A stretch of 64,000 nt of DNA from Rhodoferax sp. GTDB taxonomy: Bacteria; Pseudomonadota; Gammaproteobacteria; Burkholderiales; Burkholderiaceae_C. The stretch spans positions 62,001 through 126,000 of the forward strand of contig NZ_JAQTWL010000006.1 of NCBI RefSeq assembly GCF_028689295.1. The letters run 5' to 3'. Both the position numbers and the translations under genes were made by a program. Numbering within the stretch: position 1 is the first letter of the stretch; the number at the start of each line of letters is the position of its first letter. Under the pieces are notes generated by a model. The model was not told the origin of the DNA, made no database searches, and saw only the letters and a list, made by a program, of their open reading frames with translations. Below, in pieces: positions 44,116-56,660 of this stretch.

Positions 44116-44131
44116 TGTGACTCAAGTCACC
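44116..44131. promoter_or_regulatory. Crp/Fnr-type box upstream of the DUF2892 gene
   Basis: TGTGA-CTCAAG-TCACC matches the CRP consensus TGTGA-N6-TCACA at nine of ten positions. It overlaps the stop codon of the Crp/Fnr regulator gene and lies about 70 bases before the DUF2892 start. The adjacent regulator is the obvious candidate to bind it. Confidence 0.4.
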
Positions 44132-44783
44132 CAGCCAGGTCTCGCAAGGCGGCGCCGTTGACAATCTGGATGTGCTCGCGGCCCAGGCTGACCCAGCCTT
44201 CGCGCTCAAAGCGGCGCAGCAGCCGGGTCACCATTTCGCGCACGGTACCCAGTTCGTCGGCCAGCGTCTGGTGCGTCACATTGAGCAGTTGACCGCGCCC
44301 CAGCAAGGCCGCTGCCAGACGCCGGTCCAGCCTTTGAAACGCCACCGCATCGATCAGACTGGTGAGGTCGGCCATGCGCTCGGCAAAAAGTCCCAGCACA
44401 TCGTTGCGAAAGGCGGGCGTTTCCAGCCACCGCTTGAACAGCTCGGGCCTGATCAGCAGCAAGGTACTGGGTTTGGTGGTGACGCCATGGGCCGAGAGCG
44501 GCTGGGCGCGAAATAAACAGGCGCTCGAAACTAGGCACAACTCGCCGGGCACCACCCGGTAAAGTTCCAGCGAGCGGCCATCGCCCGAATGGCGCGACAC
44601 CTTGATTTCACCGGTCAACACCAGCGGAAAGCCCTGGCAGGCCGTGTTTTCACTGAACAACACGCTGCCTGCAGGTGCTTCAAGGGGCTGCAAGCCTGAT
44701 TCCGGGGCATCCGGCGCGGGCCGCACCTGAACCAGTGACGGGTATAAATCGGTCAGCAGCGCCATCGAGGCCATGGCGGTCAT
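44127..44783 (-). CDS. Crp/Fnr-family transcriptional regulator
   Basis: 218 residues. An N-terminal cyclic-nucleotide-binding-like beta-roll ('PAGSVLFSENTACQGFPLVLTGEIKVSRHSGDGRSLELYRVVPGELCLVSSACL') precedes a helix-turn-helix ('VTHQTLADELGTVREMVTRLLRRFEREGWVSLGREHIQI'). The N-terminal cysteine cluster of true FNR is absent, so it is not an Fe-S oxygen sensor of that kind; the four scattered Cys might still matter. It lies between a DUF2892 gene and copZ on the same strand. The effector is unknown. Confidence 0.85.
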   Translation of the reverse strand: MTAMASMALLTDLYPSLVQVRPAPDAPESGLQPLEAPAGSVLFSENTACQGFPLVLTGEIKVSRHSGDGRSLELYRVVPGELCLVSSACLFRAQPLSAHGVTTKPSTLLLIRPELFKRWLETPAFRNDVLGLFAERMADLTSLIDAVAFQRLDRRLAAALLGRGQLLNVTHQTLADELGTVREMVTRLLRRFEREGWVSLGREHIQIVNGAALRDLAG

Positions 44784-45070: not shown

Positions 45071-47296
45071 ATGACAACAGCTCAACTTCCTACTGGCTCC
45101 TTGCGGGTGGACATCGGCATTCACGGCATGACCTGCGCGTCGTGCGTTGGCCGTGCTGAGCGCGCCCTGAAAAAGGTGCCCGGCGTGCAGGAAGTGAGCG
45201 TGAATCTGGCCACTGAATCGGCCCGCGTGATGGTGCAGCCATCCGAGCAGATCGAGGCACGCCTGCGGCGCGCCGTGCGCGATGCCGGTTACGAACCGGT
45301 GGCGGCCAATGCGGCCATCGACGCGCCCAGCGAATCGAACTGGGCCGGATTTGCCCCCGTGGCGCTGGGCATTGCGTTGTCCTTGCCCTTGATGTTGCCC
45401 ATGCTCGGTGACCTGCTGAGCCAGCACTGGATGCTGCCGGCCTGGGTCCAGTTCGCCCTGGCGACTCCGGTGCAGTTCTTTCTGGGGGCGCGTTTTTACA
45501 AGGCGGGCTGGCATTCGCTCAAGTCGCTCAGCGGCAACATGGACCTGCTGGTGGCCATGGGCACCAGCGCCGGCTGGGCGCTGTCGGTGTGGTTATGGCT
45601 CAGCGCCGCCGCTGGCACCATGCCGCACCTGTATTTTGAAGCCTCGGCCGTGGTCATCACGCTGGTGCTGCTGGGCAAATGGCTCGAAGCGCGGGCCAAG
45701 CGCCAGACCACCTCGGCCATCCGCGCCCTGCATGCCCTGCGGCCTGAAACGGCGCACCTGCTGGGATTCGATGGCGAAGTCGATGTGCCGATCGACGAAG
45801 TGCTGGTGGGCGACGAACTGGTGGTGCGCCCCGGTGAGCGTTTTGCCGTCGATGGCCGGGTGATTGAGGGCCAGACGCAGGTCGATGAATCGATGCTCAC
45901 TGGCGAGCCTCTGCCGGTGAGTAAGGTGCTCCAGGACAAGGTGACCGGCGGCACGCTCAATGGCGATGGCCGGGTCATCGTGCAGGTGAGCGCCACCGGT
46001 GTCGATACGGTGCTGGCGGGCATCATCCGCCTGGTGGAAGATGCGCAGGCCGCCAAGGCGCCGATCCAGCGCCTGGTGGACAAGGTGAGCGCCGTGTTTG
46101 TTCCGGTAGTGCTGGGGCTGGCGCTGCTCACGCTGCTGGGCTGGTGGCTCAGTGGTGCGCCCTTCGAGGTGGCTGTCATCAACGCGGTCACGGTGCTGGT
46201 GATCGCCTGCCCCTGCGCCTTGGGGCTGGCCACGCCGGCGGCCATCATGGCAGGAACCGGCGTGGCGGCGCAACACGGCATCCTGATCAAGGACGCGCAG
46301 GCACTGGAACTGGCGCACAAAGCCAATGTAGTGGTGTTCGACAAGACCGGCACACTGACACTCGGCCAGGCGCGCCTGACTGACTTTGCCGTGCCGGCGG
46401 GCGCCGATCAAGACGCCTTGCTGGCCATTGCAGGTGCCTTGCAAAGCGGCAGCGGCCACCCGCTGGCGCGTGCCGTGGTGATGGCGGCTCAGCAAAAGCA
46501 GCTTGCTTTGCCGGCCGTGGCGCAATTGCAAAGCACGCCGGGCAAGGGGCTGCGCGGCCAGGTCAACGGTGAAGACTATTTGATCGGCAGTGTGCGCTGG
46601 ATGCAGGAACTCGGTGTGCGGCTTGACAGCCTCGATGTGCGCCTGCCATCGCTGAGCGCACAAGGGGCCACGCTGGCGGTCATGGCGCAACAAACGCCAG
46701 ACGGTTTGCAGGCCCTGGCGCTGCTGGCTTTTGGCGACGAGCCGAAGGCCGAGGCCAGTGCCGCCATTGCCATTTTGCGCGAACGCGGCATCCGGGTCAT
46801 GATGCTCTCGGGCGACAACAGCGCGGCTGCGCTGGCCATGGCCAAGCGCGTCGGCTTGCAACCGGATGAGGTCATCAGCAATGTGCTGCCCGGTGACAAG
46901 GCGGCACACATCACCCGCCTCAAGCAACAAGGCCGCACCGTGGTGATGGTCGGCGACGGTGTCAACGATGCCCCGGCGCTGGCGGCGGCCGATGTCGGCA
47001 TGGCCATGGCCAATGTGGGTGGCGGCACCGATGTGGCGATGCACGCGGCAGGCATCACGCTGATGCGCGGCGACCTGGCGCTGGTGGCCGCCGCGCTGGA
47101 CATCTCCAACCGCACCGTGGCCAAAATCAGGCAAAACCTGTTCTGGGCCTTTATCTACAACGTGGCGGGCATCCCGCTGGCCGCATTTGGTTTCCTGAAC
47201 CCGGTCATGGCCGGTGCCGCCATGGCGATGAGCTCGGTGAGCGTGATGAGCAACGCGCTGCTGCTCAAGCGCTGGCAACCCGATCGATCAAAGTAA
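45071..47296 (+). CDS. copA: Copper-exporting P1B-type ATPase CopA
   Basis: 741 residues with one N-terminal HMA domain ('[17 protein letters not shown]', Cys22 and Cys25), eight expected membrane helices, the actuator loop '[12 protein letters not shown]', the membrane metal site '[14 protein letters not shown]', the phosphorylation motif '[12 protein letters not shown]', a nucleotide-binding '[10 protein letters not shown]' and '[18 protein letters not shown]'. The CPC motif with these neighbours is typical of Cu(I) export. copZ is divergent upstream. The 3' end overlaps the convergent iorB by nine bases. Confidence 0.94.
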
Positions 47297-48064
47297 GGGC
47301 ACGGCGTCGGGCGACAAGGCCTCATCGACGGCAAACAGGCTGGCGGCAAGCGGGGCAGCATCGGGGCTCAACAAGCGCTGACACCAGGCGGCCACGCAAG
47401 ACGGCGGCACGGCTTCGGGCTCAAAGGCAATGCGCGATACCACCCGGGCCACCACCTCTGAGGCAACGCCGGCGGCCAACAACGCCGCAGCAAAGCGACT
47501 GGCCGCGTCGCCCATGCGAAAAGCGTTGATGTTGGCGTTGACGATGCGCTCGCCCTTGCGCGAAAAAAGCCTGCGCAATTGATTCTCGAACAGCTCCGGG
47601 GACAGCGGTAAATGCATGGCAGCCGCACCCAGCATCACGGTGTTTTGCACCTTGATGCTGCCAGCCTTTTTCGCCATGCGCGCTGCATCCAGCGCCACCA
47701 GCCGCGGCGCTGAAAACAGCACCTGATACAAGGCATCCATTGGCGGGTAATTGGCAACATTCACCATGGGCGTGATGTCGGAAACGATCCAGCCATCCGG
47801 ACGCAGCAATTGGGTGTAGCGCAGCGCCTCCATGGGTTCGACCGACAACACCATGCTGGCCATGCCGTCGCCGATCAGGTCGCTGGCGACCGGCTGGTCA
47901 GAAATGCGCACAAAGGCCGACACCGCACCGCCGCGCTGCGCCATGCCATGAACTTCGGACTGCTTCAGGTGCAAACCCGCGGCATGGATGGCGTGGTCAA
48001 TCACCCCCGCAATCGTCAGCACGCCCTGGCCGCCGACACCGCTCACCACCAGGTCATAGTTCAT
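47288..48064 (-). CDS. iorB: Indolepyruvate ferredoxin oxidoreductase subunit beta
   Basis: 258 residues. The N-terminal part is the pyruvate:ferredoxin oxidoreductase gamma-type domain: '[20 protein letters not shown]', '[21 protein letters not shown]', then '[12 protein letters not shown]'. It is somewhat longer than archaeal IorB (about 200 residues) because of a C-terminal extension after '[15 protein letters not shown]'. With IorA it converts indolepyruvate or other arylpyruvates to the aryl-acetyl-CoA. The start overlaps the iorA stop (ATGA), so the two are coupled; it is the last gene of a nine-gene operon. Confidence 0.88.
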
Positions 48065-49713
48065 GCGTGCTCCACCTTGCCATGCCGCTTGAGCTCCCGG
48101 ACTTCCTTACTGTCCTTGATTTCCTTGGCGAAGGTGACGCAGGAGCGCCGCGCGATGATGACCGACAGACCGGTGTAAGCCAGTTCCTCGCGGATGGTCT
48201 CCATGGTGTGGTGCTTTTTGTGCGGCGACGGCACCACGATGCGAATGTGCTCGCGCGCCACCCCCAGACCAGCGACCAGGTTGATGACGTCTTCGTCGGT
48301 GGCCGCAGAAGGCTGGCCGCCCGTCATGGCGATGATGCTGTTGTCCAGAATGAACACCTTGATGTTGGTGTTGTCGCGCGCCGCGTCCAGCAGCGGAGCC
48401 AACCCGGAGTGGGTAAAGGTGCCGTCGCCAATCACGCACAGGGCCTGCTTCATGCCGGCATGCACCACACCAATCGCCATGCCAATGGAGGCGCCCATGC
48501 ACAAGCACGAGTGGATGCCTTTGAGCGGCCCCACGGCGCCCAGGGTGTAGCAGCCAATGTCGCCCATGACCCGCAGGTCGGGGTTGAATTCGGCAATCAC
48601 CTCGTTAATGGCGAGGTAGGAGTCGGTGTGCGGACACTTGTCACACAGGCTTGGCGGCCGCCCAACCAGCACTTCAGTCAAACCGGCAATCTGCAACGAA
48701 GCGCTCACTGGCAGGCCAAAGCAGCGCTTGATGGCGTCTTGCGACATCTCGCCCATGCGCGGCAGATCACCGGTGAGCTTGCCGCGAATCGGCCGCTCAC
48801 GCATCAGCCCCAAGGCCGTTACATAACGCTCGATGAACGGGTAGCCTTCTTCGACGATCCAGACCTCGCTGGAGGCATCGAGCAACTGGCGGATTTTCTT
48901 GACCGGCAAGGGGTAACAGCCGATGCGCAACAGGTTGTAGCTTTGCAGCGTATCCCCCAGGGCCTCTTGCAGGTAATTGCACGCCAGGCCGCTCACCAAA
49001 ATGCCGGGACGATCCTTGCCAGTGATCGCCAGCGCATTCACCGGGTGGGCCTCCGAGTACGCCTGCAGTGCAGTTTGCTTGTCGATCAGCTTGCCATAAG
49101 CGCGCCGGGCGTTGGCGGGCAGCAGGATGAAACGACTTGGGTCGGTTACAAAGTTGGCCACATTTTGCTCGCGCGGCGCGGCCAGCCTGACCCTGGCGCG
49201 GCTGTGAGCCAGGCGGGTGACCAAGCGCAGCAGCACGGGCACCTGCAGGGCTTCAGACAACTCGAACGCCTCACGGGTAAAGTCGTAACACTGCTGCTGG
49301 TCTGCCGGTTCCAGGCAGGGCACCATGGCAAAGTCGGCAAAGTAGCGCGAATCCTGCTCGTTTTGCGAGCTGTGCATGCCAGGATCGTCAGCCACCACCA
49401 CCACCAGGCCGCCGTGCGCGCCTGACACCGCCACGTTCATGAACGGATCGGCAGCCACATTGAGCCCGACGTGTTTCATCGACACCAGCACACGCCGCCC
49501 GGCATAGGACACACCCACCGCTTCTTCAAGCGCTACTTTTTCGTTGGTGGACCACATGCCGCGCACGCTCAAGCTGTGCTTTTTGGCGTGCTCCTCAATG
49601 GTCTGGTAGATCTCGGTGGAAGGGGTTCCGGGGTAGGCAAAGGCCGCGCTGATGCCGGCATCGATGGCCCCGCGCGCCACCGCCTCGACGCCCAGCAAAA
49701 TGACTTCAGACAT
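48061..49713 (-). CDS. iorA: Indolepyruvate ferredoxin oxidoreductase subunit alpha
   Basis: 550 residues. The N-terminal domain 'ARGAIDAGISAAFAYPGTPSTEIYQTIEEHA' and 'VALEEAVGVSYAGRRVLVSMKHVGLNVAADPFMN' is the alpha part. The thiamine diphosphate site is 'VIGDGTFTHSGLAPLLDAARDNTNIKVFILDN'. A cysteine pair 'PSLCDKCPHTD' sits between them. The archaeal enzyme ends in a two-[4Fe-4S] ferredoxin domain; here the protein stops about 30 residues after 'VIIARRSC', so that domain is missing. The enzyme acts on arylpyruvates from aromatic amino acids and is expected to be oxygen-sensitive. Confidence 0.9.
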   Translation of the reverse strand: MSEVILLGVEAVARGAIDAGISAAFAYPGTPSTEIYQTIEEHAKKHSLSVRGMWSTNEKVALEEAVGVSYAGRRVLVSMKHVGLNVAADPFMNVAVSGAHGGLVVVVADDPGMHSSQNEQDSRYFADFAMVPCLEPADQQQCYDFTREAFELSEALQVPVLLRLVTRLAHSRARVRLAAPREQNVANFVTDPSRFILLPANARRAYGKLIDKQTALQAYSEAHPVNALAITGKDRPGILVSGLACNYLQEALGDTLQSYNLLRIGCYPLPVKKIRQLLDASSEVWIVEEGYPFIERYVTALGLMRERPIRGKLTGDLPRMGEMSQDAIKRCFGLPVSASLQIAGLTEVLVGRPPSLCDKCPHTDSYLAINEVIAEFNPDLRVMGDIGCYTLGAVGPLKGIHSCLCMGASIGMAIGVVHAGMKQALCVIGDGTFTHSGLAPLLDAARDNTNIKVFILDNSIIAMTGGQPSAATDEDVINLVAGLGVAREHIRIVVPSPHKKHHTMETIREELAYTGLSVIIARRSCVTFAKEIKDSKEVRELKRHGKVEHA

Positions 49714-49740: not shown

Positions 49741-50886
49741 TTATTGCACCAGCGACCAGTCGCCGTTCTTGATTTCAAGCAGGTTAAAGGCAGACAGATC
49801 AAGGCCCATGTGGTCGGTGGCCGACATGTTGACCACGCCGCCGGTCCCAATGAAGCCCTTGGTGGCCTCGATGGCGTCACGGACCTTGGCTTTGTCAGTG
49901 CCACCAGCGCGCTGGATGGCATCCACGGCCATCATCAGACCGTCATAAGCGTGGCCACCAAAAGTGGACACATCGGTTTTCCACTTTTCGTTGAATGCTT
50001 TTTTGTAGCCTGTGACCACCGGTTTTTGTGGGTCTTTGGCAGCCAATTTATCAGCAATCAACAGCGATGCGGCGGGCAGGCGGACACCTTCGGCGGCAAC
50101 GCCGGCGAGTTTGATGAATTCTTCAGAAGCGACACCGTGCGACTGGTACAGCGGCAGCGTCATGCCAAGCTGCTTGTAGTTTTTTGTGACAATGGCTGGC
50201 CCCTGGCCCAGGCCAAAAACAAATACCGCCTGCACGCCGGCGGTGTTGCGGATTTTGGTCAATTGCGGGCTGGTGTCGGTGTCTTTGGGGCCGTAGGTTT
50301 CACTGGCCACCAGGGTAATGCCGTACTTTGCAGCCACGGCTTCGGTTTCCTTTTTGCCGGATTGGCCAAATCCGCTGGTCTCTGACAACAGGGCGACCTT
50401 GGTCAGGCCACGTTTCTTGAGGTCATCAAACACCTTTTCGGCCGCCATGCGGTCGGTATGCGGCGTCTTGAACACCCACTTTTTGACAGGCTCGATGATC
50501 ACCACGGCACCGGCCAGCGAGATAAAGGGAATGTTGGCTTTTTCGACCAGCGACACCATCGACATGGTGGCACCGGTGGTGGTGCCACCCACAATCAGAT
50601 CCACCTTGTCGTCGTCGATCAGGCGCTTGGCAAAGCCGTTGGCTTTGCCGGCGTCACTGCCGTCATCGTAGTGAATCAACTGCAATGGGCGGCCCAGAAC
50701 GCCGCCTTTCTTGTTAATGTCTTCGACGTACATCTGCAGGGTCTTGATCTCCGGATCGCCCAGAAAGGCGGCCGGGCCGGTGATCGACAGGACCGAGCCA
50801 ATCTTGATGGGCTCAGCGGCAAAAGAAGTCAGCGTGCCAAGCGCCAAAGCGGCACCAGCGAGCAGTTTTTTCATCGGGAATTTCAT
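49741..50886 (-). CDS. Branched-chain-type ABC transporter substrate-binding protein
   Basis: 381 residues with a signal peptide ('MKKLLAGAALALGTLTSFA') and a Leu/Ile/Val-binding-protein fold: 'IKIGSVLSITGPAAFLGDPEIKTLQMYVEDINKKGGVLGRPLQLIHYDD', 'LIVGGTTTGATMSMV' and 'FGGHAYDGLMMAVDAIQRAGG'. In this operon, with PaaK and IorAB, the ligand is more likely an aromatic acid or aromatic amino acid than leucine; that is inference. AAGGAGA lies seven bases before the start at 50886. Confidence 0.88.
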   Translation of the reverse strand: MKFPMKKLLAGAALALGTLTSFAAEPIKIGSVLSITGPAAFLGDPEIKTLQMYVEDINKKGGVLGRPLQLIHYDDGSDAGKANGFAKRLIDDDKVDLIVGGTTTGATMSMVSLVEKANIPFISLAGAVVIIEPVKKWVFKTPHTDRMAAEKVFDDLKKRGLTKVALLSETSGFGQSGKKETEAVAAKYGITLVASETYGPKDTDTSPQLTKIRNTAGVQAVFVFGLGQGPAIVTKNYKQLGMTLPLYQSHGVASEEFIKLAGVAAEGVRLPAASLLIADKLAAKDPQKPVVTGYKKAFNEKWKTDVSTFGGHAYDGLMMAVDAIQRAGGTDKAKVRDAIEATKGFIGTGGVVNMSATDHMGLDLSAFNLLEIKNGDWSLVQ

Positions 50887-50926: not shown

Positions 50927-52252
50927 TCAAATCAGTTTGGGTCGCTCATCAAACAGGCGCCGCGCCTTGCCCGCCAGGGTGCGCGGTATCGAATCGAATT
51001 TCAGCACCGTGATCCGGGTGGATATGCCAATGTTGGTCTTGATGTGATGCTGCAACTCCTTGCCAATGGCAAGCTGCTCGGACGCTGTGAGTTTGTCCGA
51101 TACGTCGCGCTGCAACTCGCAGCGCACTTCCACCTGGTCCAGGTGCCCGTCGCGGCTGAGCACAATCTGGTAATTGCCTGAGAGCCGCTTGTCGCGCATG
51201 ATCTGCTCTTCAATTTGCGTCGGGAATACATTGACCCCGCGAATGATCAGCATGTCATCAGAGCGCCCGGTCAAGCGGTCGATGCGCCTGAAGCTGCGCG
51301 ACGTGGGGGGCAGCAAGCGGGTCAGGTCGCGCGTGCGGTAGCGAATCACCGGCATGGCTTGTTTGGTCAGCGAGGTAAACACCAGCTCGCCCGGCTCGCC
51401 CTCGGGAACCACTTCACCGGTTTCCGGGTTGATGATTTCCGGGTAAAAGTGGTCTTCCCAGATGACCGGGCCGTCTTTTGACTCGATGCACTCGCAGGCC
51501 ACACCCGGGCCGATCACTTCGGTCAGACCGTAAATGTCGATGGCATCGAGGCCGAGCTTTTTCTCGATCTCGGCGCGCATGCCCTCACCCCAAGGCTCGG
51601 CGCCAAAAAAGCCAAGGCGCAGGGAAATGTCCTGGGGCGCAATGCCAAGACGCTCAAACTCTTCGGCCAGCACCAGCGAATAGGACGGCGTGGCCATCAG
51701 GATGTCGGGTTTGAAATCCTGAATCAGCTGCACCTGCTTCTCGGTCTGCCCGCCCGACATGGGCACCACCATGCAGCCCATTTTTTCAGCGCCATAGTGG
51801 GCACCCAGCCCGCCGGTAAACAAACCGTAGCCATAGGCAATATGGCAAATGTCACCTGCGCGGCCGCCGCCGGCACGCATTGATCGCACCATCAGTTGCG
51901 CCCAGGTGTCAATGTCTTGCTGGGTGTAGCCGACCACAATGGGCTTGCCCGTGGTGCCGGAAGACGCATGCACCCGCACCACCTGGTTGCGCGGCACGGC
52001 AAACAGGCCAAACGGATAGTTGTCTCGCAAATCGAGTTTGGTTGTGAACGGAAATCTGGCCAGATCGGCCAGTGTTTTCAGGTCGTCCGGGTGCACGCCC
52101 TTGGCATCGCATTTGGCTTTGAAATGCGCCACATGGTCATAGGTGTGTCTGAGCGACCATTGGAGACGCTGCAGCTGCAATGCTGAAATTTCGTCGCGAC
52201 TGGCGATCTCGATCGGATCAATATCGCTGGACATTGGCTGCTTGTCTGTCAT
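50927..52252 (-). CDS. paaK: Phenylacetate-CoA ligase
   Basis: 441 residues, the usual PaaK length. It has 'LQWSLRHTYDHVAHFKAKCDAKGVHPDDL' near the N-terminus, the AMP-binding loop 'VHASSGTTGKPIVVGYTQQD', 'GLTEVIGPGVACECIESKDGPVIWEDHFYPEIINP' and the hinge region 'YRTRDLTRLLPP...RIDRLTGRSDDMLIIRGVNVFPTQIEE'. It activates phenylacetate, or a related aryl acid, with ATP and CoA. Its position next to iorAB and an importer ties both to phenylalanine or aryl-acid breakdown. Confidence 0.93.
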   Translation of the reverse strand: MTDKQPMSSDIDPIEIASRDEISALQLQRLQWSLRHTYDHVAHFKAKCDAKGVHPDDLKTLADLARFPFTTKLDLRDNYPFGLFAVPRNQVVRVHASSGTTGKPIVVGYTQQDIDTWAQLMVRSMRAGGGRAGDICHIAYGYGLFTGGLGAHYGAEKMGCMVVPMSGGQTEKQVQLIQDFKPDILMATPSYSLVLAEEFERLGIAPQDISLRLGFFGAEPWGEGMRAEIEKKLGLDAIDIYGLTEVIGPGVACECIESKDGPVIWEDHFYPEIINPETGEVVPEGEPGELVFTSLTKQAMPVIRYRTRDLTRLLPPTSRSFRRIDRLTGRSDDMLIIRGVNVFPTQIEEQIMRDKRLSGNYQIVLSRDGHLDQVEVRCELQRDVSDKLTASEQLAIGKELQHHIKTNIGISTRITVLKFDSIPRTLAGKARRLFDERPKLI

Positions 52253-52267: not shown

Positions 52268-52738
52268 TTATTGTGATGGGACCTGCGCGGCCTGCTCCAA
52301 CTCAGCCATCACTTCCCCGTTGATACGGTAACTCTTGCCTCGAAACAAGGCCACGATTTTGCCACCACGCACCCGCACGGTCACGTCATAGACCCCGGTG
52401 CGACCAGATCTTGATCGCTCCACAGCCTCGGCTTCAAGCATATCGCCTTCTTTGGCGGGTGCCAAAAAGTCGATGTGGCACGCCGATGCCACGGTGTTGT
52501 GGTTGTAGCTGTTGCAGGCATAGGCAAAGGCCGTGTCAGCCAGCGTAAACATCAGGCCGCCATGGCAAATGTGATGGCCATTGACCATGTCTGCGCGCAC
52601 CGGCATCGACACCAGCGCACTGCCTGCCGAGATGCTCTGCAGCGTCATGCCCAACGCCTGCACGGTCTGGTCGCGCTGCCACATGGCGGCAGCCACCGCT
52701 TCGGCAAGCTTCTGCGCATGGGGGTGTTGTTGTTTCAT
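52268..52738 (-). CDS. paaI: PaaI-type hotdog-fold acyl-CoA thioesterase
   Basis: 156 residues of the hotdog fold: 'MVNGHHICHGGLMFTLADTAFAYACNS' holds the Asn, Gly-rich and Asp residues of the PaaI active site, followed by 'ACHIDFLAPAKEGDMLEAEAVERSRSGRTGVYDVTV'. PaaI releases CoA from ring-hydroxylated phenylacetyl-CoA dead-ends. The ATG at 52738 is preferred; a TTG at 52756 would place the start against the livF stop. paaK follows after 15 bases. Confidence 0.9.
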   Translation of the reverse strand: MKQQHPHAQKLAEAVAAAMWQRDQTVQALGMTLQSISAGSALVSMPVRADMVNGHHICHGGLMFTLADTAFAYACNSYNHNTVASACHIDFLAPAKEGDMLEAEAVERSRSGRTGVYDVTVRVRGGKIVALFRGKSYRINGEVMAELEQAAQVPSQ

Positions 52739-52756
52739 TAGATTTCTCGCTGTCAA

Positions 52757-54073
52757 TCACATGCCCAGATAGGCCGCTCGCACCTGGTCATTGCGCACCA
52801 GCTCGTTGCCGCTACCGGTCAGGATCACACAGCCGGTCTCGAGCACATAGCCACGGTCGGAAATGTCAAGGGCGGCCAGGGCGTTTTGTTCAACCAGCAG
52901 AATCGTGATGCCCTGGCTTTTCAGCGTCTTGATCACAGCGAACACCTCTTGCACCAGCAGCGGAGCCAGGCCCATCGATGGTTCGTCGAGCAGCAGCAGG
53001 CGCGGGCGGCCCATCAAGGCACGGCCGATGGCCAGCATTTGCTGTTGCCCGCCCGACAAGGTGCCCGCCGGTTGGTGGCGTTTTTCCTTGAGGATCGGGA
53101 ACATGGTGAATATCTTTTCCATGTCGCCCGCCACCTGGTGTCGGGGTTGCGTATAGGCGCCCAGACGCAGGTTGTCCTCGATCGACAAGGGGCCAAACAC
53201 CTGGCGCCCTTCGGGGCTTTGGCAAATGCCGCGACGCATTCGCTTGTCCGGGCGCAGCCTGCTGATGTCTTCACCATCAAAAAAAATGCTGCCGGCACTC
53301 ATGGGCTGTACACCCGAGAGCGTTCGCAATAAAGTGGTTTTACCAGCCCCGTTGGCGCCCACCAGCGCCACGGTTTCGCCGCGGCGCACTTCGATGCTGA
53401 TGCCTTTGAGCGCCTTGATGCGGCCGTAGCAGGATTCCAGGCCCTGCACCCGAAGCAAAACTTCGGCCTGTGCCGGGCTTGCGCCGCCTGGCAAATGGCC
53501 TACACTTTTGCCGCCCAGTCCGAGAGATTCGGGTGCCACGCTGACGATGCGGTGGTACAGCTCACGAAACCCGGCCTGCGCGGCATCGCCAAATAGCGGG
53601 TGAACGGGATCATGAAAGGCGCGGTTGATTTCAACCCAATCCTCTTTCAGCAGGGTCTTGTGCGCCAGTGGCAGCAACTGTTTTTCTTCAGTCAGAATGT
53701 GCGACTTCAAATCGGCCGTGAAGTGGCGCAGTTGTGTGGCCAGTGCTGGCCCTGACATCTCCCCTGCCGCCACCGCTGCCATGGCGGCTCGCAAGGCCCG
53801 ATGCCTGCTGCCGCTGTCCCGGTGATCCTGCTCCAGACGATCGAGCGTGGTGGCAACTTCAGGGCTGCGCAAGCGCAGATAGTGAAACAAAAAGCCATCT
53901 TCTTTCGGATAGTGCAAGCGCTCCTCGAACTGCACGATGTAGTCCAGCGCCGCGCTCAAAAAATTTGGGTCGAGCGCGACACCGGCTTCAAGTTCAACAG
54001 CCAATTGGTCCACCGTGGTGGCCATGCGCCACAGGCTGTTGTGGTCTTCGCTGATGATGCGCAGTGCGTCCAT
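52757..54073 (-). CDS. Hemerythrin domain fused to LivF-type ABC transporter ATPase
   Basis: 438 residues with two unlike domains. Residues 1-140 form a hemerythrin HHE domain: His11 in 'ISEDHNSLW', His54 and Glu58 in 'ERLHYPKED', His84 (or His91) in 'LEQDHRDSGSRH', His125 and Glu129 in 'LKSHILTEEKQLLPLA', a complete set of di-iron ligands. After a linker (about 141-204) comes a full LivF ATPase: Walker A 'GANGAGKTT' at 239-247, signature 'LSGGQQQML', Walker B 'LLLLDEPSMGLAP' and the switch-region His replaced by Gln in 'LLVEQNA', normal for LivF. Ordinary LivF is about 235 residues and has no such domain. No frame break exists between the halves. Neighbours are livG and paaI. Confidence 0.93.
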   Translation of the reverse strand: MDALRIISEDHNSLWRMATTVDQLAVELEAGVALDPNFLSAALDYIVQFEERLHYPKEDGFLFHYLRLRSPEVATTLDRLEQDHRDSGSRHRALRAAMAAVAAGEMSGPALATQLRHFTADLKSHILTEEKQLLPLAHKTLLKEDWVEINRAFHDPVHPLFGDAAQAGFRELYHRIVSVAPESLGLGGKSVGHLPGGASPAQAEVLLRVQGLESCYGRIKALKGISIEVRRGETVALVGANGAGKTTLLRTLSGVQPMSAGSIFFDGEDISRLRPDKRMRRGICQSPEGRQVFGPLSIEDNLRLGAYTQPRHQVAGDMEKIFTMFPILKEKRHQPAGTLSGGQQQMLAIGRALMGRPRLLLLDEPSMGLAPLLVQEVFAVIKTLKSQGITILLVEQNALAALDISDRGYVLETGCVILTGSGNELVRNDQVRAAYLGM

Positions 54074-54085
54074 GGTGCTTGTCGT

Positions 54086-54847
54086 TCAGGCGTGCGCACC
54101 CAGATAGGCGGCAATCACGTCCGGGTTGTTGCGCACCTCGATGCAACTGCCCTCGGCCAGCTTTTTGCCATAGTCCAGCACCAATATGCGGTCTGATAGA
54201 TTCATCACCATCTTCATGTCATGCTCCACCAGCACTACCGTGATACCCGAATCGGCCACCCTGCGCACCAGAGCATCCACGTCCTGGGTTTCCCTGGTAT
54301 TGAGCCCGGCGGCGGGTTCGTCGAGAAAAATCAGGCGCGGCTTCATGGCCAGGGCGCGGGCAATTTCCAGGCGCTTGAGTGCGCCATAGGGCATGCTGTC
54401 GGCACGGGCTTGCAAGTAGTCCTGCAGGCCAACAAAGCGCATCAGTTCTGTCGCCTCTTGCCGCAGTTCATGGTCGCGCGTCCGGATGGATGGCCAGCGC
54501 AAGGCTGCCTTGAACAAATTGCGATCGAGCCGCAGATGCGCACCCACCATCACGTTCTCGATGGCGCTCATGTTCATGCAGATTTGCAGGTTTTGAAAGG
54601 TCCGGGCCACACCGCGCTGCGCCAGTTCGTTGGGCGTTTTTCCGCCGATGGATTCACCGTCGAGTTTGATCGTGCCGCTGGTCGGGGTGTAGATGCCGGT
54701 GATCAGGTTAAACAAGGTGGTTTTGCCTGCGCCATTGGGGCCAATGACGGCATAAACGATGCCTGCGTCAATGGCGAAACTCACATTTTGTACCGCCTTG
54801 ACACCGCCAAAATGAATCGATAGCTGGTTCACTTCAAGCAGCGCCAT
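54086..54847 (-). CDS. livG: Branched-chain-type ABC transporter ATPase LivG
   Basis: 253 residues: Walker A 'GPNGAGKTTLFNLITGIY', the Q-loop region 'GVARTFQNLQICMNMSAIENVMVGAH', signature 'PYGALKRLEIARAL' and Walker B 'LIFLDEPAAGLN'. The C-terminal 'GKKLAEGSCIEVRNNPDVIAAYLGA' is typical of LivG. It pairs with the hemerythrin-LivF protein to power the importer. It ends 12 bases before that gene and starts two bases after livM. Confidence 0.93.
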   Translation of the reverse strand: MALLEVNQLSIHFGGVKAVQNVSFAIDAGIVYAVIGPNGAGKTTLFNLITGIYTPTSGTIKLDGESIGGKTPNELAQRGVARTFQNLQICMNMSAIENVMVGAHLRLDRNLFKAALRWPSIRTRDHELRQEATELMRFVGLQDYLQARADSMPYGALKRLEIARALAMKPRLIFLDEPAAGLNTRETQDVDALVRRVADSGITVVLVEHDMKMVMNLSDRILVLDYGKKLAEGSCIEVRNNPDVIAAYLGAHA

Positions 54848-54849
54848 GC

Positions 54850-55782
54850 CTATTCACCCCTCACGAACTTGGCCGCCAGGGTCGGCACCAAGCCTTTGGG
54901 CAGAAAGATCATGCACAGCATCAGGATGGTGCCAAACGCCACCGTTTCCCAACCCTCAAAAGACGTGAGTGTCTGCGGCAGGGCGGTCAGCAAAACGGCG
55001 CCCACCACCGAGCCATAGACTGACGCCATACCGCCAATCACCACCATGGTGACCAGTTCAAGGGAGTGAAAAAAATCTGCCAGATTAGGTGTCACAAAAC
55101 CCACGTAATGGGCGGTGACGCTGCCCATGATGCTGGCAATCACAGCCGAGACCACAAAAATGGCGACTTTGTAGCGCACCACATCGACCCCAACCACCTG
55201 CGAGGCCACTTCAGAGCCATGCAAGGCCCGCAAGGCACGTCCAAACGGCGAATCGATCAGGTTCAGCGAAGCCCAGATGGCCAGCGACAACAACAAGGCA
55301 GTCAGCCAATACCAGAGCTTGTCGCCTGACAATTCATAACCCAGCAGCGCCATGGCTGGCACCGGCATACCGTCAGGGCCACCGGTCAGGCCCGCCTCAT
55401 TGCGCACCACAATATTGATGATGATGCCCAATCCCAGCGTGGCCATGGCCAGGTAATGTCCCCTGAGCTTGAAAATGGGCCGCGCCAGCACGGCGGCCAG
55501 CAGCCCTGCGCCCACTGCGCCTGCCACCATGGCCAGCAGCGGATGCCAGCCAAAGTGCGTCGGCAACACTGCAGAAGCATAAGCGCCAATGCCCAAAAAC
55601 CCTGCGTGCCCCAAACTGATCTGCCCGGCAAAACCGATCAGAAGATTCAGGCTCAGCACAATCACCGCGTTGATCGCCATGCGAATTGCCAGGTCCATGT
55701 AGAAACTGTTGGGCAGCACAAAAGGCAACACCAGCAGAACCGCCATGATGAGGTACAGACCGATAAAAGCTGGGTTGCGCAT
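54850..55782 (-). CDS. livM: Branched-chain-type ABC transporter permease LivM
   Basis: 310 residues with about nine hydrophobic segments. 'IAINAVIVLSLNLLIGFAGQISLGHAGFLGIGAYASAVL' near the N-terminus and 'TMVVIGGMASVYGSVVGAVLLTALPQTL' near the C-terminus are the LivM signatures. It forms the membrane channel with LivH. The gene starts two bases after the livH stop and ends two bases before livG, so the transporter genes are tightly linked. Confidence 0.92.
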   Translation of the reverse strand: MRNPAFIGLYLIMAVLLVLPFVLPNSFYMDLAIRMAINAVIVLSLNLLIGFAGQISLGHAGFLGIGAYASAVLPTHFGWHPLLAMVAGAVGAGLLAAVLARPIFKLRGHYLAMATLGLGIIINIVVRNEAGLTGGPDGMPVPAMALLGYELSGDKLWYWLTALLLSLAIWASLNLIDSPFGRALRALHGSEVASQVVGVDVVRYKVAIFVVSAVIASIMGSVTAHYVGFVTPNLADFFHSLELVTMVVIGGMASVYGSVVGAVLLTALPQTLTSFEGWETVAFGTILMLCMIFLPKGLVPTLAAKFVRGE

Positions 55783-55784
55783 AG

Positions 55785-56660
55785 TCAGACCCGGTCGGTC
55801 AATTTGCCGCCAAACAAGCCACGTGGTTTGAAAAACAGCATCAACAAAATCAACACAAACGGAATCGCATCCTTGTAGGATGACGAGATGTAGCCAGCGC
55901 CCATGGCTTCCAGAATACCCACCAGCAATCCGCCCAGTACGGCGCCCAGTCCATTGCCCAAACCACCCACCACGGCTGCCACAAAACCCTTGAGCCCCAG
56001 CATCACACCCACATCGTACGAGGTCAGCGTGATCGGTGCGACCAGAATGCCACCCAAGGCTCCGAGCGCAGCAGAAAGCGCAAAGCTCATGAAGAGAACC
56101 CAGTTGGTGTTGATGCCCACCAACTCGGCTGCAAGGCGGTTATGCGATGTGGCCAGCATCGCCTTGCCATGCAGGGTTCGATTGAAAAAATACCATAAGC
56201 CAAGCACGACCAGCGCTGTCACCCCCAGCACCCAAAGGCTTTGCGGCATCAGCGTGGCACCCAGAATCTGCAGCGGTTCATCACCCGAAAACGCCGGCAG
56301 GCTGTGTGTCGCCTTGCCCAACCAGACCTGGATCAACCCCCGGATCACCAGGGAGGCGCCAATCGTGATGATGATCAGCGTCACCGACTCTGCGCCCTTG
56401 ACGGGTTCAATCGCCAACTTTTCAAGCACCACGCCCACCAGGGCAGGCAATACTATCGCCAATAGCAAGGCGAATGGCAGTGGCAGTCCGGACTGGGAAA
56501 AATACACCGCCAACATGCCGCCCAGCATGATGAATTCTCCCTGAGCAAAGTTAATGACATTGCTGGCGTTGTAGATCAGCGTGAAACCCAATGCGGCCAG
56601 AGCATAAGTCGCCCCAACCGTGATGCCGGAGAACAGGAACTGTAGAAACTGGGCCAGCAT
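55785..56660 (-). CDS. livH: Branched-chain-type ABC transporter permease LivH
   Basis: 291 residues with about eight helices: 'FLFSGITVGATYALAALGFTLIYNASNVINFAQGEFIMLGGMLAVYF' at the N-terminus and 'GVMLGLKGFVAAVVGGLGNGLGAVLGGLLVGILEAMG' near the C-terminus. It is the first gene of the nine-gene operon that ends with iorB. Its leader, 56661-56823, contains a perfect 12-bp palindrome that may be an operator. Confidence 0.92.
   Translation of the reverse strand: MLAQFLQFLFSGITVGATYALAALGFTLIYNASNVINFAQGEFIMLGGMLAVYFSQSGLPLPFALLLAIVLPALVGVVLEKLAIEPVKGAESVTLIIITIGASLVIRGLIQVWLGKATHSLPAFSGDEPLQILGATLMPQSLWVLGVTALVVLGLWYFFNRTLHGKAMLATSHNRLAAELVGINTNWVLFMSFALSAALGALGGILVAPITLTSYDVGVMLGLKGFVAAVVGGLGNGLGAVLGGLLVGILEAMGAGYISSSYKDAIPFVLILLMLFFKPRGLFGGKLTDRV

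Follow-up and report, generated by a model that had tools for sequence, protein, structure and literature searches.

Hemerythrin-type HHE domain and LivF-type importer ATPase, joined in one protein, form a conserved architecture according to comparison of the available sequences, and the HHE part, whatever its mechanism, very probably serves an importer of the arylacetate type as an accessory di-iron domain on a tether. In the window, i.e., the whole stretch of 64,000 nucleotides of Rhodoferax sp. DNA that was analysed, the fusion gene is a single frame of 438 codons, read from 54073 down to 52757, with an ATG start, a TGA stop and no internal stops (Table 1), which bears out the uninterrupted HHE-ATPase frame reported in the preliminary description. 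Both halves exceed the Pfam cut-offs of their families: residues 3-137 match Hemerythrin (PF01814; 52.5 bits, cut-off 25.3) and residues 222-366 match ABC_tran (PF00005; 106.9 bits, cut-off 25). The Walker A motif, GANGAGKTT, occupies exactly the residues previously assigned to it (239-247). Among NCBIfam models, the ATPase half is closest to LivF, UrtE and LptB, lying under the curated equivalog cut-off of each, and reaches 267.9 bits against the 441 that define LivF sensu stricto (NF008626). Therefore, 'LivF-type' is a safer name than 'LivF', and the earlier label of a complete LivF ATPase holds for the ABC_tran domain and Walker A, not for the equivalog. The ABC motifs, together with an operon encoding LivG, LivH, LivM and LivK types, place the protein among the Liv-type (branched-chain / HAAT) importer ATPases.

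Table 1. Coordinates of the fusion gene, its parts, its putative iron ligands and the neighbouring operon genes in the window.
Feature	Position	Strand	Evidence
HHE-LivF fusion gene, 438 aa	52757..54073	-	single open frame; two Pfam domains above cut-off
Complete HHE (COG3945-like) portion, residues 1-187	53513..54073	-	PF01814 match residues 3-137
Linker, residues 188-203	53465..53512	-	model pLDDT <50 at residues 156-168 and 177-201
LivF-type ATPase domain, residues 204-438	52760..53464	-	Walker A at 53333-53359
Putative ligand His11	54041..54043	-	91/91 rows
Putative ligand His54	53912..53914	-	91/91 rows
Putative ligand Glu58	53900..53902	-	91/91 rows; Thr in genus g432
Putative ligand His84	53822..53824	-	91/91 rows; Tyr in genus g432
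Putative ligand His125	53699..53701	-	91/91 rows
Putative ligand Glu129	53687..53689	-	91/91 rows
LivH-type permease, first gene of run	55785..56660	-	Pfam and NCBIfam matches
LivM-type permease	54850..55782	-	Pfam and NCBIfam matches
LivG-type ATPase	54086..54847	-	Pfam and NCBIfam matches; 12-bp gap to HHE-LivF
PaaI-type thioesterase	52268..52756	-	TIGR02286, 169.6 bits, cut-off 118.9
Phenylacetate-CoA ligase PaaK	50927..52252	-	TIGR02155, 691.7 bits, cut-off 646.3
LivK-type substrate-binding protein	49741..50886	-	PF13458
IorA-like subunit without 4Fe-4S domain	48061..49713	-	TIGR03336, 3-541 of 595, 524.5 bits, under cut-off 650.9
IorB-like subunit	47288..48064	-	NF005324, 242.2 bits, cut-off 222

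The fused HHE domain corresponds to a whole standalone protein: it has the same length and the same C-terminal block (DPLFG..F..LF.RI..AP) as standalone HHE proteins, which are mostly about 185-200 aa long, both those adjacent to transporters and the others. In the predicted model of the fusion (pTM 0.58) the linker is disordered, and thus no interface between the domains is predicted. The conserved block that follows the four-helix bundle (residues 156-187) is modelled with low confidence, and structure matches obtained with Foldseek and VIA span residues 203-438 only, i.e., the ATPase part.

Confirmed relatives in named genomes numbered 99, of which the best 80 were examined. In all 80 loci LivG is directly followed by HHE and LivF in one frame, with no stop or frameshift between the domains; a frameshift, a chimera, chance or an assembly artefact was therefore rejected as the origin of the fusion, and the database search proposed in the preliminary description yielded a conserved architecture. 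LivH and LivM also lie upstream in 76 of the 80, the other four beginning too near the contig end; six loci run off the end of their contig, and in L070 the C-terminus is abnormal, with a stop at 371 codons. The genome sets were draws from larger groups. In that from the order of the window's genome (399 genomes), HHE matches at 1e-10 or better occurred in 58 genomes (75 matches) and the full fusion in 10, including the window's own; a draw of the class (369 genomes) added three verified fused genomes (G599, G605 and G482), and one of the phylum (398 genomes) three more from a single genus (G822, G884 and G917). Outside the window's genome, the fusion was thus found in nine more genomes of the order, in six from other orders of the class and on one Azospirillum plasmid, that of A. 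lipoferum 4B, whose fused gene encodes 441 aa and is 46.2% identical. The genera named include Dechloromonas, Azonexus, Zoogloea, Rhodoferax, Polaromonas, Castellaniella, Malikia, Brachymonas and Glaciimonas.

The six putative iron ligands are kept in every row of the fused alignment (91 rows representing 86 distinct sequences, some genomes entering from two collections), although identity of the HHE domain to that of the window drops to 43.7% among the 80 loci, in which LivF identity ranges from 73.6 to 92.8%. E130 is likewise invariant. The full ligand set described beforehand was thus confirmed in homologues, and the choice it had left between His84 and His91 was settled for His84, His91 being rejected as a ligand because it occurs in 3 of the 91 rows. 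All six residues are present in the G599, G482 and G605 fusions, and also in standalone HHE proteins, whether transporter-adjacent (14/14) or other (49/49), except for two single cells (gap or Leu). Genus g432 (G822, G884 and G917; loci L245, L246 and L247) departs from this pattern, keeping the fusion with E58T and H84Y: in YtfE numbering, one of the irons would have lost two of its three ligands, and the domain of this genus hence cannot hold the usual di-iron site.

In Escherichia coli YtfE the ligands are H84, H129xxxE133, H160 and H204xxxE208, as given in the accessible part of the source (PMC9268430). The same 4His/2Glu pattern of RIC/YtfE, H-HxxxE-H-HxxxE, with equal spacing, is displayed by the fused HHE domain in 91/91 rows, none of which carries the canonical motif reported for O2-binding hemerythrins, H-HxxxE-HxxxH-HxxxxD (PMC9388753, in the portion available); the initial designation as an oxygen-binding hemerythrin is accordingly not supported. 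A profile built from eleven fused HHE domains matches the structures of YtfE, NMB1532 and FBXL5 with E-values from 5e-5 to 1e-4 (YtfE 5e-5), while the N-terminal ScdA domain of YtfE had no match in the fusion protein (P0001) among Pfam matches at E 0.001. From these residues we infer that the HHE domain of the fusion would bind a di-iron centre. Rough dN/dS values, from five pairwise comparisons with silent sites near saturation, were 0.11 to 0.36 for HHE, indicating purifying selection, and 0.04 to 0.12 for LivF.

The operon of the window runs LivH, LivM, LivG, HHE-LivF, PaaI, PaaK, LivK, IorA and IorB, with gaps from -4 to 40 bp; the PaaI-type gene abuts HHE-LivF (gap 0) and starts with TTG, or with a later ATG. 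Elsewhere, PaaK or PaaI was found in the examined flanks of 33 of the 80 named loci, or 23 of the 39 with both flanks of 10 kb, and LivK in those of 12 of the 80. The Dechloromonas denitrificans fusion (L086) has PaaI, PaaH, PaaG and PaaN nearby, and the G599 locus PaaX and PaaA. Downstream of the Zoogloea fusion (L093) lie FAA hydrolases, aldehyde dehydrogenases, a CHMI-type isomerase and an HpaI-type aldolase, a set which we take to be the make-up of the homoprotocatechuate pathway. This gene context, with the window's own PaaI and PaaK, the paa genes close to many fusions and the homoprotocatechuate-type genes at L093, suggests that the importer probably takes up arylacetates (phenylacetate and kin). 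Given PaaK together with IorAB, interconversion of arylacetates and arylpyruvates could be an alternative route in the window's genome.

The preliminary description had backed its case for oxygen or redox switching with an oxygen-sensitive iorAB in the same operon, and had asked whether the fusion always accompanies iorAB and paaK. PaaK or PaaI is indeed common near the fusion, albeit not universal, whereas iorA/iorB homologues appear in the examined flanks of 3/80 named loci, and iorAB was consequently rejected as the reason for the HHE domain. Moreover, the 4Fe-4S domain is missing from the IorA of the window (no Fer4 match in Pfam and one CxxC), which leaves the label 'oxygen-sensitive' unsupported. 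In G822 the fusion adjoins an indolepyruvate oxidoreductase that forms a single chain of 1172 aa, and in G917 an IorA-like match lies near the fusion. No ferredoxin gene was seen beside IorA (window 48061-49713). Near the operon end, the window also holds a Crp/FNR-type regulator gene (44127-44783) and, on the other strand, a gene named from its sequence as P-type copper-ATPase-like (45071-47296).

Other genes were observed around the Dechloromonas fusion. Directly downstream, a large hybrid sensor histidine kinase (L086:11492-14410, +) is nearest to the TorS, BarA and ArcB models, under their cut-offs. Upstream of LivH, a protein of 342 aa (P0002; L086:5096-6124, +) carries two ExxH motifs (115-118 and 216-219), typical of di-iron carboxylate oxygenases, and is followed by a 2Fe-2S/FAD/NAD reductase (L086:6285-7334, +); this pair lies upstream of LivH in 33/80 named fused loci. 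The best Pfam match of P0002 was AurF (20.1 bits, below cut-off); no NCBIfam model was matched above its cut-off, nor any PDB sequence, and the predicted model of P0002 has a mean pLDDT of 51.4. In a comparison of 16 fused with 19 unfused genomes, P0002 occurred in 7/16 and 0/19, respectively, six of the seven lacking PaaA; it may be an undescribed oxygenase replacing the PaaABCDE epoxidase. PaaA itself did not differ (6/16 fused, 11/19 unfused), PaaA or P0002 was no commoner in fused genomes (12/16 against 11/19, p 0.48), PadE exceeded its cut-off in 1/16 and 2/19, and HpaD in 0/35, with weaker matches in G000, G172, G205, G599 and G356.

The evolutionary record of the domain was traced through unfused partners and trees. 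In the LivF tree, the fused LivFs of the order belong to a 32-row group comprising 31 fused sequences and the unfused G108 (support 100/98); the tree gives no resolution of the deeper branching between fused and unfused sisters. G108 retains the same transporter (LivF 82%) and has no HHE part; its clade lies within that of the fused LivFs, where G108 (L178) is sister to the fused G184 (support 100/98). As its genome has no HHE match at 1e-10, the simplest reading is that the HHE domain was lost in G108, and that it is dispensable, the transporter being kept without it. A locus of G108 (L241:7564-10874) was seen to have the LivHMGF layout near PaaK and PaaI, with about 35 bp from LivG to LivF and without HHE. 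A single clade comprising all 38 fused HHE domains was not rejected (p-AU 0.85), so that a single origin of the fusion, which was then kept, is possible. The HHE domain of Azospirillum lipoferum stood apart on a long branch in a quick tree, but was rejected as a separate fusion given that same result.

Separate HHE genes also accompany Liv-type transporters. In the order, 50 of 65 unfused HHE matches were examined with their flanks, several of which end at contig ends; a same-strand LivF occurred within about 6 kb in 13/50, and within about 130 bp in 8, the proximity expected from LivF density in the window's genome, a rough null, being about 4%. In the close separate pairs HHE follows LivF, whereas in the fusion it precedes it. 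The LivFs of transporter-adjacent HHE genes fall outside the fused clade in the tree, L049, whose branch is very long, being the exception; this suggests that a tie between HHE and transporter arose more than once. Azospirillum oryzae, for instance, has a separate HHE gene after LivF; the operon also encodes 3-hydroxybenzoate 6-monooxygenase. As HHE is a separate protein at such loci, covalent coupling is not essential.

We propose that a RIC-like di-iron HHE protein, joined whole to the N-terminus of a LivF-type ATPase through a flexible linker, would be held next to the importer as an accessory module on a tether. O2, H2O2 or NO would set the redox state of the domain, and thereby modulate the ATPase. 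Imported arylacetates would become CoA thioesters, whose further degradation is usually oxygenase-dependent, so that import without O2 would trap coenzyme A. PaaI thioesterase releases trapped CoA, and the PaaI-type enzyme encoded by the next gene in the window would serve as such a release valve. Since an importer ATPase carries a full di-iron ligand set under strong constraint, transport may plausibly receive an input from oxygen or redox state, and to this extent the suggestion that ATP hydrolysis may be redox-switched survives the failure of the iorAB argument. The oxygenase argument is unproved for the window's genome (96.8% complete), in which no PaaA, P0002-type protein, NosZ or NirS was found.

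Strict conservation of the ligands and the fixed place of the domain on LivF favour regulation, while an accessory role, dispensable in some lineages, is favoured by the separate-gene forms, by the flexibility of the linker and by what happened in G108 (loss) and g432 (ligand decay). On balance, that the redox state of the HHE domain modulates uptake or ATPase activity has slightly less than an even chance; it is the reading we prefer, with local protection or scavenging not far behind. The narrower proposal, in which the di-iron state acts directly on the rate of ATP hydrolysis by LivF, raising or lowering it so that uptake of aromatic acids follows oxygen or NO, is advanced tentatively. The direct allosteric link first suggested is weakened by the disordered linker, the absence of the domain in one sister species and the ligand loss in g432. 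If gating occurs, import would be set at the protein level by oxygen or redox state, faster than through gene regulation, and coenzyme A trapping would be avoided when the ring cannot be opened. The bacteria concerned (Dechloromonas, Azonexus, Zoogloea, Castellaniella and Rhodoferax) degrade aromatic pollutants where oxic and anoxic zones meet.

It is conceivable, if somewhat doubtful, that the ATPase is unregulated and that the HHE domain provides local protection, scavenging O2, H2O2 or NO, or donating iron, at the membrane. This would agree with the ligand pattern shared with RIC/YtfE (PMC9268430, accessible part), with the flexibility predicted for the linker and with the working of HHE as a separate gene elsewhere, for which the authors of PMC6449761, in the text available, suggest protection or oxygen storage. 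The genome comparison points the same way, as NosZ occurred in 11/16 fused and 4/19 unfused genomes (p 0.007), but these counts are not independent, there being only two independent pairs on supported branches; the window's genome, furthermore, has neither NosZ nor NirS. NirS-type proteins (PF02239, >300 bits) were found in 12/16 and 8/19 (p 0.09), and BcrC in 0/16 and 8/19 (p 0.004, again with two independent pairs on supported branches). Among the eight BcrC genomes, the unfused LivF shares a contig with BcrC in five, at a distance of 12 to 20 kb, and lies on a different contig in three. With only two independent pairs, all these counts could stem from relatedness alone, and neither denitrification nor the absence of benzoyl-CoA reductase was accepted as an established correlate of the fusion. 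Protection alone also leaves unexplained why the HHE domain stays with Liv-type transporters and, among their subunits, with LivF.

A scaffold, in which HHE would hold partners (e.g., PaaK, PaaI or an oxygenase) or stabilise LivF, iron being incidental, is improbable, and a scaffold or any other mechanism taken together is unlikely. Genus g432 retains the fusion despite the loss of Glu58 and His84, and the block at residues 156-187 is conserved yet modelled with low confidence, as a partner-binding segment might be; nevertheless, the six ligands are invariant outside g432 and recur in standalone HHE proteins. Neutral hitchhiking of the fusion with a useful transporter could accommodate the faster evolution of HHE than of LivF, the loss in G108 and the decay in g432, but invariant ligands, purifying selection across genera and orders and the recurrence of the unfused HHE-Liv partnership make it very improbable. 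Natural controls exist in G108 without the domain, g432 with broken ligands (its fusions at L245, L246 and L247 being a natural set on whether iron matters) and the separate HHE partners of other Liv transporters, and they open to direct test the long-standing question of what HHE proteins do in aromatic clusters.

The importer, if gated by the di-iron state, would be the first of the ABC class known to us to have a hemerythrin-type input domain, and no report of the HHE-LivF fusion was found in the open-licence literature. The combination of hemerythrin domains with other functions is in itself known: the main text of PMC4919030, in which the terms 'ABC', 'ATP-binding' and 'transporter' do not occur, counts 56 architectures for O2-binding hemerythrins. 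The sensors Bhr-DGC and DcrH likewise fuse a hemerythrin domain to an effector in one chain, as HHE-LivF does, and Bhr-DGC is 10 times more active in its diferrous form, but the portion available describes the canonical O2-type motif and signalling outputs in place of an ABC ATPase (PMC9388753). Some P1B-5 metal-transport ATPases, according to the same portion, carry a hemerythrin-like domain of unclear role; these too are ATP-driven transporters, differing in being P-type, in their ligand motif and in the terminus that bears the domain (PMC9388753). With RIC/YtfE the fused domain shares the 4His/2Glu ligands and their spacing, and it differs in the unmatched ScdA-type domain and the fused ATPase. 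Unfused LivF sisters (G108, G067, G354 and others) belong to the same transporter subfamily without the HHE domain, those three also lying near PaaK and PaaI. A further precedent is the COG3945 HHE gene described, in the text available, beside the benzoate ABC transporter in benzoate clusters, where HHE, an aromatic-acid ABC transporter and a COG4231 2-ketoacid:ferredoxin oxidoreductase come together in Rhodocyclales and Rhodoferax (PMC6449761). Hemerythrin-domain sensors, a P-type transporter with such a domain and a separate HHE by a benzoate transporter are thus already known, which tempers the earlier claim of a new type of transport control, the fusion itself being unreported in open-licence papers. 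The difference lies in the joining: HHE is a separate gene in the clusters of PMC6449761, whose main text contains neither 'fused' nor 'fusion', whereas here it is joined to the N-terminus of the ATPase.
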